A stretch of 64,000 nucleotides of DNA, taken from an uncultured Eubacterium sp. (GTDB lineage: Bacteria; Bacillota; Clostridia; Peptostreptococcales; Anaerovoracaceae). Below the pieces are notes generated by a model. That model made no database searches and was not told where the DNA came from. It saw nothing but the letters and a program-made list of their open reading frames with translations. Below, piece by piece: positions 18,981 through 57,909 of this stretch (positions are counted from its first letter, which is position 1; each line of letters opens with the position of its first letter). Where the stretch lies: positions 1 through 64,000 of the forward strand of contig CAMNSS010000006.1 of assembly GCA_946555345.1 (NCBI GenBank), read 5' to 3'. The position numbers and the translations under genes are program-made.

Positions 18981-19077
18981 GGGGGTAGATGGGCGCTGGT
19001 GTGCCTTCCGGTCTTCAAAACCGGTTTGAGGGGTTAAGAGCTTCTCAGGTGGGTTCGATTCCCACATACTCCCGCCA
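18981..19077 (+). tRNA. selC: tRNA-Sec (TCA, reads UGA)
   Basis: A 97-nt tRNA with the hallmarks of selenocysteine tRNA: anticodon TCA in loop CTTCAAA between CCGGT and ACCGG, a long variable arm (about 20 nt), a 5-bp T stem GTGGG/CCCAC around TTCGATT, a long acceptor (GGGGGTA with TACTCCC), discriminator G and encoded CCA. It lies between grdD and selA, so the tRNA, its charging enzyme and its elongation factor are contiguous. Confidence 0.96.
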
Positions 19078-35057: not shown

Positions 35058-36362
35058 TTGAGAATTGTCCATTATATCAATCAGTTTTTCGGCCAGGTCG
35101 GCGGGGAAGCAGAAGCCGGGCATCCTTTAGAGGCCAGGCCGGGTGTCGTTGGCCCAGGCATGGCGTTGAAACAGCAGATCGGCGATAACGAAATCGTGGC
35201 TACGATTATCTGCGGCGATAATTATTTTGTCGAAAATATCGATGCAGTAAAGCCGCAGATGGTGAATATTTTAAAAGAGTACAAGGCTGATATGCTGGTC
35301 GCAGGGCCTGCATTCAATGCGGGAAGGTACGGCATGGCGTGCGGCAGTGCGTGCCAGATTGCAAATGAAGAGCTGGGAATCGAGGCGGTTTCCGGTATGT
35401 ATGAAGAAAATCCGGGCATGGAGATGTACCGGAAATTTGCTTACATCGTGCCGACGGGAAACAATGCCAGGGGAATGCGGGATGCTGTGAGCAAGATGGG
35501 AACGCTGATCAAGCGGATCGCAGACGGCGAAATGCTGACAAGTCCCGAAGAAGACGGGTTCTTCGAGAGAGGCCTTAGGGAAAATATCTTTTTGGAAAAG
35601 ACCGGTGCAGAGCGTTGCGTCGATATGCTCCTGAAAAAAATCAAGGGCGAGGATTTTGAGACCGAGCTTCCGATGCCGGTGTTTGAAAAGTTTGAACCGA
35701 GCCCTGCGATCAAAGATATGTCAAAGGCTACGATCGCAGTCATGACCAGCGGCGGCATGGTGCCTGCAGGCAATCCGCACAGGCTGGAGGCTTGCAACTG
35801 CACGAAGTGGGAATGTTATTCCATAGATAGCGATTACGGCGGCAGGGGCGTGACGAAGGGCATGGTTGTCCATGGCGGATATGATCCGACGTATGGAAAC
35901 GCGGATGGGAACAGGATTCTCCCGATCGACATGATGGTAGCGCTTGAGCAGGAAGGCAGGATCGGAAAACTCTATGATTACACCTATGTTACCGTCGGAA
36001 ACGGCATGGGAACGGATCAAGCAACCGTGTTTGGGGATGAGATTGCGAAGAAGCTTTTAGATGCGAAGATAGACGGTGCGATCCTAACCTCCACCTGAGG
36101 AACTTGTACGCGTTGCGGTGCAACGATCGTAAAACGGATAGATGCAGCGGGAATCCCGATTGTCCACATCTGTACCGTTACTCCGATTTCCATCTCCGTA
36201 GGAGCGAACCGGGTCGTGCCTGGCGTATCGATCCCGCATCCTGTTGGAAAGCCGGATTTACCATTGGAAGAAGAAAAGGCATATAGAAAGAAAATGCTGG
36301 AAACAGCCCTGAAGGCTCTCGAAACGGATATACAAGAGCAGACCATCTTTGCAGTCGAGTAG
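35058..36362 (+). CDS. component B selenoprotein (GrdB/GrdF/GrdH-like, in-frame TGA = Sec)
   Basis: Two halves joined by TGA at 36096-36098 form a 434-residue protein. The Sec context ILTSTUGTCTRCGA is diagnostic of the selenoprotein subunit of component B. The N-terminus has EARPGVVGPGMALKQQIGDN and the C-terminus ANRVVPGVSIPHPVGKPDLP. TTG at 35058 with AAAGGAGGG 8 nt upstream is the start. The subunit cleaves the C-N bond of the pyruvoyl-bound substrate and passes the carboxymethyl group to GrdA. Gene callers that stop at TGA will lose the last 88 residues. Substrate not determined. Confidence 0.95.
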
Positions 36363-54645: not shown

Positions 54646-55059
54646 TCATTTAACAGCATCGTTTACGAGGTCGGCAATGGAGATGCGGTCAAAATACGCC
54701 TGGGTCATGTCGTGAAACTCGCTCCACATGGCGATGGTTTTGCAGGCGCTTCTCCTTTCGCACGGCTTTGAATCGCATTCGAGGCACGCAACGGGGGCGA
54801 GGTTTCCTTCCGTCAGGCGGAGGATTTCACCGACGGTATAGTCCTCCGGCGGCCTTACCAAGCGGTATCCGCCGCCCTTTCCATGGACGCCTTCCACTAG
54901 ATTGCTTTTTGATAGGGCGGGCATGATCCGTTCCAGGTACTTCAATGAAATTCCTTGCCTGTCAGCAACTTGTTTCATGGGAATGTATGCGTCCTTTGTC
55001 TGTTGGGCAAGGTCGATCATTACGCGGAGTGCGTACCTGCCTCTCGTTGAAATCATCAT
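54646..55059 (-). CDS. Rrf2-family regulator (CymR/IscR-like)
   Basis: A 137-residue winged-helix regulator: STRGRYALRVMIDLAQQ, MKQVADRQGISLKYLERIMP and GKGGGYRLVRPPEDYTVGEI. The Cys-rich loop CLECDSKPCERRSACKT could bind an Fe-S cluster as in IscR. Two adjacent ATGs follow GAGGTG; the first (55059) is chosen. The long frame extending upstream to 55899 is an artefact. It lies downstream of the O-acetylhomoserine sulfhydrylase gene on the same strand, so a CymR-like role in cysteine metabolism is plausible. Confidence 0.9.
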   Translation of the reverse strand: MMISTRGRYALRVMIDLAQQTKDAYIPMKQVADRQGISLKYLERIMPALSKSNLVEGVHGKGGGYRLVRPPEDYTVGEILRLTEGNLAPVACLECDSKPCERRSACKTIAMWSEFHDMTQAYFDRISIADLVNDAVK

Positions 55060-55444: not shown

Positions 55445-56731
55445 TTATCCCCGCACCGCCGCAAATCCCTTTTCAAGATCTGCGATAATGTCATCGATAT
55501 GTTCCGTGCCGATGGAAAGGCGGATGGTGTTCGGCTTGATTCCCTGGTCAGCCAATTCTTCTTCCGTAAGCTGGCTGTGCGTCGTGGTAGCCGGATGAAT
55601 GACAAGGCTCTTGGCATCGGCGACGTTCGCCAGAAGGGAAAAGATTTGCAGGTTGTCGATAAACTTGTGCGCTTCTTTGACGCCGCCGTTGATTTCAAAG
55701 GTGAAAATAGATGCGCCGCCCTTTGGGAAATACCGCTGGTAAATGGCATGGTTCGGATGATCCGGCAGGGATGGGTGGTTGATATGCGCCACCTGCGGAT
55801 GAGCGGACAGAAATTCCACGACTTTCTTGGTGTTTTCCACGTGGCGTTCCAAACGCAGCGAAAGCGTTTCAATCCCTTGCAAAAGCAGGAACGCAGCAAA
55901 CGGGGAAAGGGTCGCTCCCGTATCGCGCAGCAGGATGGCGCGGATGTAGGTCACAAAGGCTGCGGGTCCTGCCGCTTCTGTAAAGGAAACGCCGTGGTAG
56001 CTTGGGTTCGGCGCAGCGATCGCCGGATATTTTCCAGATGCTGCCCAGTCGAATTTGCCGGAATCCACGATGATGCCGCCCAGAACCGTGCCGTGGCCGC
56101 CGAGAAACTTTGTCGCTGAATGCACGACGATGTCAGCGCCATGTTCGATCGGGCGGATCAGGTACGGTGTGCCGAACGTATTGTCAACGACAAGCGGCAG
56201 CCCGTGTTTGTGTGCCAGCGCAGAGAGCGCATCGATATCGGGGATATCGCTGTTCGGATTGCCGAGGGTTTCGATGTAAATTGCCCTTGTGTTTTCCTGG
56301 ATTGCCGCTTCTACTTCCCCTAAGTTATGGATATCCACGAAGGAAGCGGTAATGCCGAAATTCGGCAGGGTGTGCGCCAGCAGGTTATAGCTGCCGCCGT
56401 AAATGGTTTTCTGGGAAACGATATGGCCGTTGTTTTGTGCCAGCGCTTCGATGGTATAGGTGATTGCCGCAGCGCCGGATGCCAGCGCTAGCGCTGCGCT
56501 TCCGCCTTCTAATGCGGCGGCCCGCTGTTCCAGGACATCTTGTGTAGAGTTGGTAAGGCGGCCGTAGATGTTTCCGGCGTCCTGCAAGCCAAACCGGGCG
56601 GCTGCGTGTGCTGAATCGCGAAATACATAGGAGGCCGTCGCATAGATGGGAACGGCGCGGGCATCGGTTGCCGGATCGGGTGTTTCTTGTCCTGCGTGGA
56701 GTTGTAATGTTTCAAATTTGTAGCCAGGCAT
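55445..56731 (-). CDS. O-acetylhomoserine sulfhydrylase (aminocarboxypropyltransferase)
   Basis: A 428-residue PLP enzyme of the Cys/Met metabolism family. It begins YKFETLQLHAGQ and contains YATASYVFRDSAHAAARFGL, QKTIYGGSYNLLAHTLPNFG, VVDNTFGTPYLIRPIEHGAD and the PLP lysine in HSATKFLGGHGTVLGG. It makes homocysteine from O-acetylhomoserine and sulfide, or cysteine from O-acetylserine. GGAAGGAAA precedes the ATG at 56731. The 305-nt leader has its own promoter, a Met/Cys-rich leader peptide and a terminator, so expression is probably controlled by attenuation. Confidence 0.95.
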   Translation of the reverse strand: MPGYKFETLQLHAGQETPDPATDARAVPIYATASYVFRDSAHAAARFGLQDAGNIYGRLTNSTQDVLEQRAAALEGGSAALALASGAAAITYTIEALAQNNGHIVSQKTIYGGSYNLLAHTLPNFGITASFVDIHNLGEVEAAIQENTRAIYIETLGNPNSDIPDIDALSALAHKHGLPLVVDNTFGTPYLIRPIEHGADIVVHSATKFLGGHGTVLGGIIVDSGKFDWAASGKYPAIAAPNPSYHGVSFTEAAGPAAFVTYIRAILLRDTGATLSPFAAFLLLQGIETLSLRLERHVENTKKVVEFLSAHPQVAHINHPSLPDHPNHAIYQRYFPKGGASIFTFEINGGVKEAHKFIDNLQIFSLLANVADAKSLVIHPATTTHSQLTEEELADQGIKPNTIRLSIGTEHIDDIIADLEKGFAAVRG

Positions 56732-56752
56732 GATATTTTCCTTCCTTTCTGT

Positions 56753-56782
56753 ATAAAAATGGGAGACTCCGATGAGCCTCCC
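56753..56782 (-). terminator. leader terminator (attenuator) upstream of the sulfhydrylase gene
   Basis: On the minus strand GGGAGGCTC-ATCG-GAGTCTCCC gives a 9-bp stem with a tetraloop, followed by ATTTTTAT, and only 22 nt before the start codon. A terminator in the leader of the gene it precedes is the mark of attenuation. Confidence 0.88.
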
Positions 56783-56824
56783 AACCTGTAAGCAGGTCCA
56801 CAATGCGCATTTTCCGCATCTTGT

Positions 56825-56974
56825 TTATGCGGCGTGGCGATTTGCTTGCGGGATATGATTCTTCGGCAAGATGGAGAACGTATCGGAAATTTGCGTATGA
56901 AAACTCATATACATATGGCAATTCCATATGCACATTTCCATCATTTCGGTTGCAGTGGCATGAACCTTTTTCAT
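56825..56974 (-). CDS. Met/Cys-rich leader peptide
   Basis: A 49-codon frame with a strong AAAGGGG 8 nt before its ATG. Residues 10-24 read EMMEMCIWNCHMYMS: five Met codons and two Cys codons within 14 positions. It lies in the leader of the O-acetylhomoserine sulfhydrylase gene, whose products are homocysteine, cysteine and then methionine. The Met/Cys codons are inside a palindrome (CATATGG-AATTG-CCATATG). The stop codon overlaps GCCGCAT/ATGCGG, and the attenuator follows 43 nt later. This is the layout of ribosome-mediated attenuation. Confidence 0.72.
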   Translation of the reverse strand: MKKVHATATEMMEMCIWNCHMYMSFHTQISDTFSILPKNHIPQANRHAA

Positions 56975-57042
56975 GACACGAATCCCCTTTCTCTCGGCGT
57001 TGTTTTTGATTTAAAAACTTACCTATCATTTAAGTCGGTAAT

Positions 57043-57071
57043 AGGATACCACTTATTACCTACCGAGTCAA
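57043..57071 (-). promoter_or_regulatory. promoter of the sulfhydrylase leader with inverted repeat
   Basis: On the minus strand, TTGACT (57071-57066), 17 bp, TATCCT (57048-57043). TCGGTA-GGTAATA and TATTACC-GA form an inverted repeat covering the spacer and -10, a likely repressor site; the Rrf2 protein is a candidate. Confidence 0.65.
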
Positions 57072-57082
57072 TAGGAAAATGA

Positions 57083-57375
57083 AAAATTTTGATATAATTT
57101 CTTTTCGTGTGGTTTGCCGCTATATGGCGGCTCGTAGCGGAATTTCGGTGCAACAAAAATTACCGCCGCATTTGCTGTGGGAGACCTCGCATATTTTCTC
57201 GCAGCGTAGCTTCCGCAGGGCGTTGCGCCGATAAAATCCATATAGCGCACAGCGCAGAGAACGTCTGCTTGGCGTGGAGTCTTCCGCGGGCGTCGCTTCG
57301 GTGAAATTTATGTTGCCGAATCCCTGTTGGAAGAATCCATTCTAAGTTGAATTTCGTGCGGTTTGCCGTTTTTCC
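57083..57375. other. intergenic region, 293 bp
   Basis: No gene seen. TTTCGTGTGGTTTGCCG (about 57104) and TTTCGTGCGGTTTGCCG (about 57354) are near-identical direct repeats that flank the stretch, possibly the ends of a small inserted element. Confidence 0.4.
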
Positions 57376-57909
57376 CTAGCTGAGCTTCATCTGGCCGGCA
57401 TCTTTTCCTTGTATGCGTTTGCGGTAAAAATTGATCAGTAATGTGTAAATGTAATCATAAAGAATCATCATCAGCGTGCCGCCGGCGATGAGGGCGATGA
57501 CAGGGTAGTCCGGCAGGTTGATGCTGCCCAAGACGAGTTCTTTGAATCCAAGTAAAGCGATGGATAATACAGCGGCGAAAAAAACAGCTTTTATGGCGAC
57601 CTGGACGATGCCGTTCGGCAGTTTTTCGATATAGTATTTTACGATGCCGTAATAGCCGAACAGAAAGGCGTATGGAATGATCGCCAGCTTGTTGGGAATC
57701 AACACGGACCCTAAAAGGACGGCGGCTGCATACAAAATAATGCCGCTTCCGACGCCTGCTTCCAGGATCATTACCGCCACGAAAACAGAGCTGATGGCAT
57801 ATAAAGTAAGTTCAATTCCGGGAACAATAGACCCGGCAAACATGAAAATAATGGTCAGGGCGAGGCAGATCCCGCCCAGTGTAATTTTAGCGGTTTTACT
57901 TTTTGTCAA
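57376..57909 (-). CDS. conserved membrane protein of unknown function
   Basis: About 177 residues from a TTG at 57909, with AAGGAG 11 nt upstream; the open frame reaches to 58056 but the extra 49 residues are proline/threonine-rich and lack a ribosome binding site. Five or six hydrophobic segments (GGICLALTIIFMFAGSIVPG; SGIILYAAAVLLGSVLI; YAFLFGYYGIVKYYIEKLPN) point to an integral membrane protein. No family is recognised with confidence. It might belong with the J-domain gene upstream on the same strand. Confidence 0.65.
   Translation of the reverse strand: MTKSKTAKITLGGICLALTIIFMFAGSIVPGIELTLYAISSVFVAVMILEAGVGSGIILYAAAVLLGSVLIPNKLAIIPYAFLFGYYGIVKYYIEKLPNGIVQVAIKAVFFAAVLSIALLGFKELVLGSINLPDYPVIALIAGGTLMMILYDYIYTLLINFYRKRIQGKDAGQMKLS

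Follow-up and report, generated by a model that had tools for sequence, protein, structure and literature searches.

INTRODUCTION

Control by methionine (Met) and cysteine (Cys) is known in Firmicutes mainly through SAM riboswitches and T-boxes. In the leader-peptide attenuator trpL, the segment corresponding to the antiterminator 5′ arm lies past the stop codon of the leader frame. Attenuators of the trpL, hisL and ilv type, such as the Corynebacterium ilvB frame (PMC11109978), share with the locus described here a frame rich in codons for the pathway end product, mutually exclusive antiterminator and terminator structures and a downstream gene of the same pathway. The present locus, found upstream of a putative O-acetylhomoserine sulfhydrylase (OAHS) gene in a 64,000-nt stretch of DNA from an uncultured Eubacterium sp. 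(hereafter the window), differs from that type in that it uses Met and Cys control codons, places the antiterminator 5′ arm inside the frame and carries the stop codon in the antiterminator apex.

The 2010 survey that described a histidine leader in bacilli states that no earlier regular leader peptide was known outside Proteobacteria and Actinobacteria (PMC2965389). These hisS/hisZ leaders resemble the window leader as regular leader-peptide attenuators that stand in place of a T-box in Firmicutes, but they serve another amino acid and other genes, and the likeness is one of description only. A 2024 survey lists eight upstream-frame candidates, two of which, ilvB and fthC, are described (PMC11109978). 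The Streptococcus fthC candidate, tentatively linked to methionine via initiator-tRNA levels and initiation, is again like the window leader in having an upstream frame, three hairpins of which the third is terminator-like, a stop codon often in the second, a methionine link and a Firmicute host; it differs in relying on initiator tRNA and initiation instead of internal Met/Cys codons and in its gene, which encodes 5-formyltetrahydrofolate cyclo-ligase, and this comparison also is by description only.

Cysteine leader peptides of Actinobacteria likewise place Cys codons in a short frame upstream of sulfur-metabolism genes, but their Cys runs lie near the stop codon and the mycobacterial cases have no conserved hairpin capable of termination (PMC1262725); in the window type, Met dominates and an intrinsic terminator is present. 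With respect to the target gene, the closest counterpart is in Clostridioides difficile, in which metY, metK and metNLQ are under a SAM-I (S-box) riboswitch (PMC11477304); the window OAHS gene is of the same metY type but has no SAM-I RNA. The met operon of Xanthomonas has a methionine-responsive 5′ leader that acts mainly at the translational level (PMC6230763). In the open-access literature, which our search covered in part, no Met/Cys leader of the window kind was found; the window leader appears to work like a classical attenuator, but its control codons and its layout are new.

RESULTS

A Met/Cys-rich leader frame upstream of an OAHS gene

The elements of the locus, all on the minus strand, are listed in Table 1. 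An earlier note on this DNA had described the promoter, a 49-codon frame with its ribosome binding site, the Met and Cys codons and a palindrome over them, all of which are present as it stated. It had also reported a 9-bp terminator with a T-run 22 nt before the structural start; the terminator is there, with 10 pairs, and the OAHS start (56731) lies approximately 22 nt past the end of its tail. The hairpin noted at the leader stop codon exists as well, and is better interpreted as the antiterminator's apical portion. The antiterminator pairing between frame and terminator and the dyad symmetry over the promoter are elements beyond that account. The label OAHS is finer than the Pfam match, which does not separate paralogues, and is thus a putative assignment.

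Table 1. Elements of the OAHS locus in the window, in order of transcription
Feature	Coordinates	Strand	Basis
Dyad CCTATTGACTCGGTAGG over the -35 region, probable operator	57059..57075	-	Exact match; 0.83 expected at <=3 mismatches
Sigma-70 type promoter TTGACT-17-TATCCT	57043..57071	-	Promoter scan; TTGAC invariant across the 11-row alignment
Second dyad TTACCGACTTAAATGATAGGTAA just 3′ of the -10 region	57019..57041	-	0 mismatches, 0 expected in shuffles; pattern drawn from an alignment containing the window itself
Shine-Dalgarno AAAGGGG of the leader frame	56984..56990	-	Sequence; purine-rich element 5′ of the start codon in 11/11 leaders
Leader peptide frame, 49 aa, ATG start, Met/Cys-rich	56825..56974	-	ORF and relatives
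Control codons 11-23 (5 Met, 2 Cys)	56906..56944	-	Codon count and alignment columns
Palindrome/hairpin over control codons, 12 pairs at 56907-56935	56897..56941 (fold)	-	Best fold
Antiterminator 5′ arm TCCGATA..TCTCC, codons 30-34	56873..56887	-	Folds and hand-placed arms
Stop-codon hairpin CCGCAT/ATGCGG	56814..56832	-	Sequence and folds
Antiterminator 3′ arm GGGAGGCTCATCGGA, overlapping terminator 5′ arm and loop	56768..56782	-	Folds and hand-placed arms
Intrinsic terminator, 10 pairs (56760-56783), then TTTTTAT	56753..56783	-	Terminator scan; -17.8 kcal/mol
OAHS (metY type), controlled gene	55445..56731	-	Pfam Cys_Met_Meta_PP, E 9.7e-133
Rrf2-family regulator, downstream of OAHS, same direction	54646..55059	-	Pfam Rrf2, E 3.1e-37

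Codons 10-24 of the leader frame, EMMEMCIWNCHMYMS, contain five Met and two Cys codons, and Met and Cys account for 7 of the 18 residues in codons 10-27 (P 7.7e-6 against an assumed Met/Cys background of 4.5%). The frame is recovered at E 4.6e-22 by a profile built with the window included. In the 1 kb around the leader, 2 promoter-like sites were observed versus 1.7 in shuffles, so that the promoter match is weak on its own, and its surroundings are kept in ten relatives; for terminator-like sites, the corresponding numbers are 5 and 1.6. The fold of the whole leader beats shuffled sequences (z -3.87, with 0 of 200 as good), and the hairpin over the control codons may be of the pause type. 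No Rfam family matches within the window leader at gathering score, at which the window as a whole also lacks a T-box, and a permissive search of 56500-57500 returned only snoRNA matches far under the gathering score, with no T-box and no SAM RNA, in agreement with the earlier note, which had recognized neither S-box nor T-box; none of the 11 leaders described below matches a riboswitch family in Rfam.

Leaders of the window type are rare

Relatives were taken from GTDB genomes as the best 80 OAHS proteins among the matches listed, a sample of close relatives, and the upstream 600 nt of each gene were examined (412 nt at one locus). A leader of the window type was found at 8 of these 80 loci (L032, L033, L036, L042, L045, L060, L069 and L079). 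A profile made from nine window-type peptides (A1) was then searched over 391 genomes of the class, the window's own included. At E <= 1.3e-18 it matched the window, G218 (two copies), G139 (one) and G107 (one), i.e., 3 of the 390 other class genomes, with the next best match at E 8e-4. One of the G218 copies is L032 and the G107 copy is L042; the two new leaders, L114 and L115, were added, giving a set of 11 (the window, the eight above and these two), apparently from 10 genomes. Strong A1 matches were chosen without regard to the gene, and L114, L115 and L116 all lie upstream of OAHS, the fourth being L032. Matches at E 8e-4 and worse were taken as noise; the five inspected (L117-L121) have no OAHS downstream.

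No match at E <= 0.001 was obtained in 397 other genomes of the phylum, a set that overlaps the class genomes. Within its own genome the leader peptide matches only itself, and the families of G218 and G139 yielded no more members in 4 and 5 other genomes, respectively. At the DNA level, the whole 361-nt leader has no match in 60 other genomes, 36 of them of the same genus; the best outside match (E 8.5e-5) comprises 31 nt around a ribosome binding site and the start of a gene in a different setting, and was rejected as evidence. A covariance model built from the 11 leaders recovers its own members at 60.7 bits at least, as expected by construction; in the 92 sources searched, no other sequence scores above 20 bits. 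One further locus, L068, was left out: despite a Met/Cys-rich frame and a terminator-like hairpin, it lacks a covariance-model match. Altogether, the leader class is real but rare.

The antiterminator pairing is conserved and covaries

When the region from just 5′ of the arm to the terminator loop was folded alone, one nested structure was obtained in all 11 leaders, consisting of P1 (TCCGATA/TATCGGA and variants), a small internal loop, P2 (TCTCC/GGAGA and variants) and an apical part. The leader stop codon lies inside the apical stem-loop in 9 of the 11, the exceptions being L042, which has no stop there, and L079. Because P1 and P2 take their 3′ arms from the 5′ arm and loop of the terminator itself, the antiterminator and terminator are mutually exclusive. 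In the P1/P2 register, 128 of 132 cells pair, a count that leans towards pairing since the arms were placed by hand from the folds, and 5 of the 12 pairs (2, 3, 7, 8 and 11) show changes on both sides. In L045, U-A replaces C-G at pairs 3 and 11, and G-C replaces U-A at pair 8; L079, in which the arm is read in another frame, shows the exchange of C-G for U-A at pairs 2 and 11. That pairing is kept despite the frame shift of L079 and the amino acid differences of L045 argues that the RNA pairing, not the peptide, is conserved there.

In all 11 leaders, one and the same segment of the frame gives the best pairing with the terminator 5′ arm. With respect to pairing energy in single leaders, fewer than 5% of shuffled frames match the natural one in 7 of 11; the test failed at this level for the window (235 of 1,000 shuffles) and for L060 (70), L069 (115) and L079 (357). 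A hairpin is found at the terminator position in every leader, with T-rich tails of varying quality.

The frame is kept together with its Met/Cys codons

Upstream of OAHS, every one of the 11 leaders contains a frame preceded by a ribosome binding site, and the frame is presumably translated. The distance from the start codon to P1 is 75, 81, 84, 87 or 90 nt, in frame, in 10 of the 11 leaders, with L079 (86 nt) as the exception. In L042 (582-887) the frame has no stop ahead of the terminator and would run through it, at 72 codons, as an exception in layout.

These data bear on the possibility that an uncatalogued metabolite riboswitch, sensing for example Met, SAM or homocysteine, accounts for the conserved RNA, the frame being incidental. 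P1 and P2 with their small internal loop are well conserved, as such an RNA would be, and metY of C. difficile is under a SAM-I riboswitch (PMC11477304). However, a riboswitch would leave unexplained why a Met/Cys-rich frame with a binding site occurs in 11 of 11 leaders and why length changes keep the frame in 10 of 11; moreover, the conserved pairs are those of the antiterminator stem, no elaborate junction was seen and Rfam gave no match. We therefore regard a riboswitch as unlikely.

Met and Cys number 7 to 11 per 18 residues in every leader, and occupy alignment columns 13, 15, 16, 17, 20 and 22 in 9 or 10 of 10 or 11 rows. Summed over the 11 leaders and with start codons excluded, the segments 5′ of the arm contain 56 Met and 38 Cys codons. 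In the same segments, differences by codon position number 455, 606 and 603, and of 958 codon differences just 122 are synonymous; outside the Met/Cys columns, the peptide bears no sign of selection. Such poor conservation agrees with a leader that depends on the identity of its codons and not on the sequence of its peptide, and makes the standard test of coding conservation of no help.

A nascent peptide that halts the ribosome in response to a small molecule, with the codons not sensing charged tRNA, was considered as well, some residues recurring among leaders (MCMW..C.M). Yet the relatives' peptides are just 26-56% identical to that of the window, Met/Cys content is kept with its order varied, and the C-terminal part is unconserved as a peptide; no conserved motif near the stall site, of the kind seen in TnaC or SecM type arrest peptides, was found across the leaders, the frame being lost past the Met/Cys codons in L079. 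An arrest peptide is accordingly quite improbable.

A hairpin over the Met/Cys codons is part of the best fold in 11 of 11 leaders. ATG and TGC codons, however, are inherently self-complementary. Shuffles folded as well in 4 of 200 cases for the window and 130 of 200 for L036, and a clear excess is confined to some leaders.

A model for ribosome-mediated attenuation

We consider it likely that the Met/Cys leader acts as a ribosome-mediated transcription attenuator, by which OAHS expression is tied to the availability of charged Met-tRNA, Cys-tRNA or both. A ribosome following RNA polymerase would begin the 49-codon frame. Under shortage of Met or Cys, it would slow on codons 11-23, with its leading edge short of the antiterminator 5′ arm; the free arm would pair with the terminator 5′ arm once the latter is transcribed, enclosing the stop-codon hairpin, and polymerase would read into OAHS. 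With Met and Cys plentiful, the ribosome would reach the stop codon in the apical antiterminator and disturb this structure, permitting the terminator to form; that a ribosome there disfavors the antiterminator is suggested by its position. Stalling, the direction of the response and Met rather than Cys as the main signal are likewise predictions of the model, and build on parts whose geometry is jointly conserved in 11 leaders with compensatory changes.

The geometry was evaluated with a ribosome modelled as covering 14 nt from the A-site onward. In the window, each of the seven Met/Cys codons leaves P1 free when in the A-site; across the 11 leaders this applies to 87 of 112 (5 to 10 per leader), the remaining 25 being in or past the arm, where a stall would be of no help. 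With the arm free and only the downstream RNA folded, the P1 core (6 pairs) forms with a probability of 0.98 in the window and 0.97-0.99 in seven others, the values for L060, L114 and L079 being 0.66, 0.58-0.82 and 0.35-0.89, respectively.

Full-length equilibrium models, for which the transcript start was assumed, favor the terminator in 10 of 11 leaders at every ribosome position tried; L045 alone favors the antiterminator. Antitermination must therefore be kinetic, the antiterminator forming before the terminator 3′ arm is made. When pairing was allowed across the ribosome, the probability of the window antiterminator before the terminator 3′ arm ranged from 0 to 0.93 by codon, falling to approximately 0 at codons 21 and 23, and it was also low at most positions in L069, L079 and L114. 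With a ribosome at the stop codon, the window core pairs still reach 0.98 as the energy changes from -39 to -28 kcal/mol; in L036 the change is from -30 to -18 kcal/mol. In both, the structure is much weakened but may still form.

Folding for mutually exclusive hairpins, as suggested in the earlier note, yields an antiterminator that excludes the terminator and covaries across the 11 leaders, and alignment with ten relatives shows Met/Cys-rich frames kept together with the RNA structure. The note's central proposal, that stalling at Met/Cys codons favors antitermination, gains support from the relatives and the geometry; the response itself is a prediction, as the folding models alone do not produce a switch. 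If correct, charged tRNA, as read by the ribosome on a covarying Met/Cys-codon attenuator, would join the sensors of sulfur amino acids. The leader most likely switches on a sulfur-assimilating enzyme at Met/Cys shortage, a job done by riboswitches in some other bacteria, and with Met also being the initiator such a leader must work while initiation continues.

Other leader types precede the same genes

In all ten relatives, a second short frame lies between the terminator and OAHS, ending in N-(F/Y)-R-F-G-R-M or running past it, so that a Met/Cys attenuator and an N-F-R-x-G-R-M leader stand in tandem in 10 of the 11 leaders. The window, in which just approximately 22 nt separate terminator and gene, has no such leader there, and the search of its genome gave nothing convincing (best E 0.37). 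At E <= 0.05, a profile made from 24 N-F-R-x-G-R-M peptides (A2) matched in 48 of 391 class genomes; chance probably accounts for the weakest of these matches. Among the 30 loci of the best matches (L144-L173), 28 are upstream of OAHS and two upstream of an NlpA (MetQ-type) lipoprotein. The motif is N-(F/Y/W)-R-x-G-R-M, often followed by Cys or a stop. In 56 distinct cases, chosen by a motif requiring Arg-Met, the Arg preceding Met is encoded by CGA in 54, the first Arg uses all six codons, and the codon after Arg-Met is TGT, TGC or TGA in 46. By eye, no terminator was seen between this leader and the gene in the sequences inspected.

In E. coli, the s2C32 modification of tRNA-Arg blocks reading of CGA (PMC5372741). 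An account of the CGA codon through sulfur-modified tRNA was rejected, as no association with a TtcA-like protein emerged: such a protein above 150 bits is encoded in 15 of 23 genomes with an N-F-R-x-G-R-M leader and in 16 of 21 without, and 0 of 45 exceed the curated cut-off. Searches of the leader peptides against protein families (six peptides in NCBIfam, five in Pfam) gave nothing, and no mention of FRFGRM was found in the open-access papers searched.

A second kind of Met/Cys leader, approximately (M/C)-C-C-(R/L)-M-xx-S-R-A and hence termed the SRA kind, has its own antiterminator. Of 30 frames carrying CTCCCGGGCA or near variants, chosen by a motif that includes CTCCCGGGCA, 28 have TGCCCGGGAG or a near variant downstream; CTCCCGGGCA is complementary to TGCCCGGGAG, which by eye lies ahead of a terminator-like hairpin. 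In the 30 listed (L052, L073, L074, L077, L080, L082, L086, L087, L090, L093-L095, L099, L107, L110, L174-L181, L196-L199, L204, L206 and L212), the ATG ends 5 nt 5′ of the arm. Genes behind SRA-kind profile matches include OAHS (L178 and L185), and Pfam assigned seven downstream genes as five NlpA lipoproteins, one Cys/Met-metabolism enzyme and, under the cut-off, one transporter component.

It is possible, though short of what we would favor, that the window leader is one of several exchangeable modules of ribosome-based Met/Cys sensing that replace SAM-I at metY- and metQ-type genes, comprising Met/Cys-codon attenuators, the SRA kind and the N-(F/Y/W)-R-x-G-R-M leader as a nascent-chain arrest sensor for a methionine-related metabolite. 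If this modular reading is true, the tandem leaders are two ribosome sensors in a row on one gene. The N-F-R-x-G-R-M type, which recurs in other class genomes, may be a larger discovery than the window leader itself.

Two loci upstream of OAHS, L037 and L038, are hybrids in which FRCGRM is directly followed by an SRA-type antiterminator arm and a terminator-like hairpin. Their arrangement suggests that N-F-R-x-G-R-M can replace stall codons.

History of the gene and its leader

In a tree of OAHS proteins, the window protein and 8 of the 10 other attenuator-bearing proteins fall in a clade of 20 (support 0.996), which contains none of the 19 OAHS proteins from the window's own genus (74-82% identical). 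The nearest neighbors of the window protein are L046/L146 and a set including L145 of a same-family genome. It is plausible that the window's lineage acquired both the OAHS gene and the leader horizontally. Upstream of the 19 genus genes, the SRA kind of leader was found at 7 and a frame ending in RMCIC at 2; the filter recognized none at 10, one of which has just 143 nt upstream. These differences among loci of one genus indicate that leaders before OAHS are gained, lost or exchanged.

Promoter dyads and a candidate Rrf2-type repressor

The promoter is flanked by the dyads CCTATTGAC..GGTAGG and TTACC..GGTAA, and a sequence like the second dyad of Table 1 is present in most of the 11 alignment rows. 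CCTA-N8-10-TAGG occurs in 37 of the 80 upstream regions of the best 80 listed OAHS, other leader kinds included, compared with a mean of 1.5 and a maximum of 6 in mononucleotide shuffles, which are a loose control. A relative of the Rrf2-family regulator lies within the fetched flank at 40 of 99 OAHS loci, flank lengths differing between them. These data suggest a second layer of control by an Rrf2-type repressor, with the Rrf2-family protein as the candidate binder of the promoter dyads. That such a repressor acts alone, the leader being a vestige or without regulatory role, would agree with the frequency of the dyads, with the rarity of the class and with the genus loci at which no leader was recognized, but is most improbable given that the antiterminator, which covaries, and the Met/Cys-rich frames of all 11 leaders argue for selection.

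In two members of the genus (L195 and L203), an Rrf2 relative lies upstream of OAHS on the opposite strand.

Genome context

The only SAM-I match of the genome is on another contig (L001; G000:C26:15962-16081), directly upstream of a metK-like frame, whose sequence reads as that of a putative S-adenosylmethionine synthetase. With the sole SAM-I match before a metK-like gene, this genome has SAM sensing at one gene and the OAHS leader at another.

Elsewhere in the window, a selenocysteine tRNA (18981-19073, plus strand) and a SECIS_4 element (36099-36136, plus strand) were detected, and the organism may make selenoproteins.
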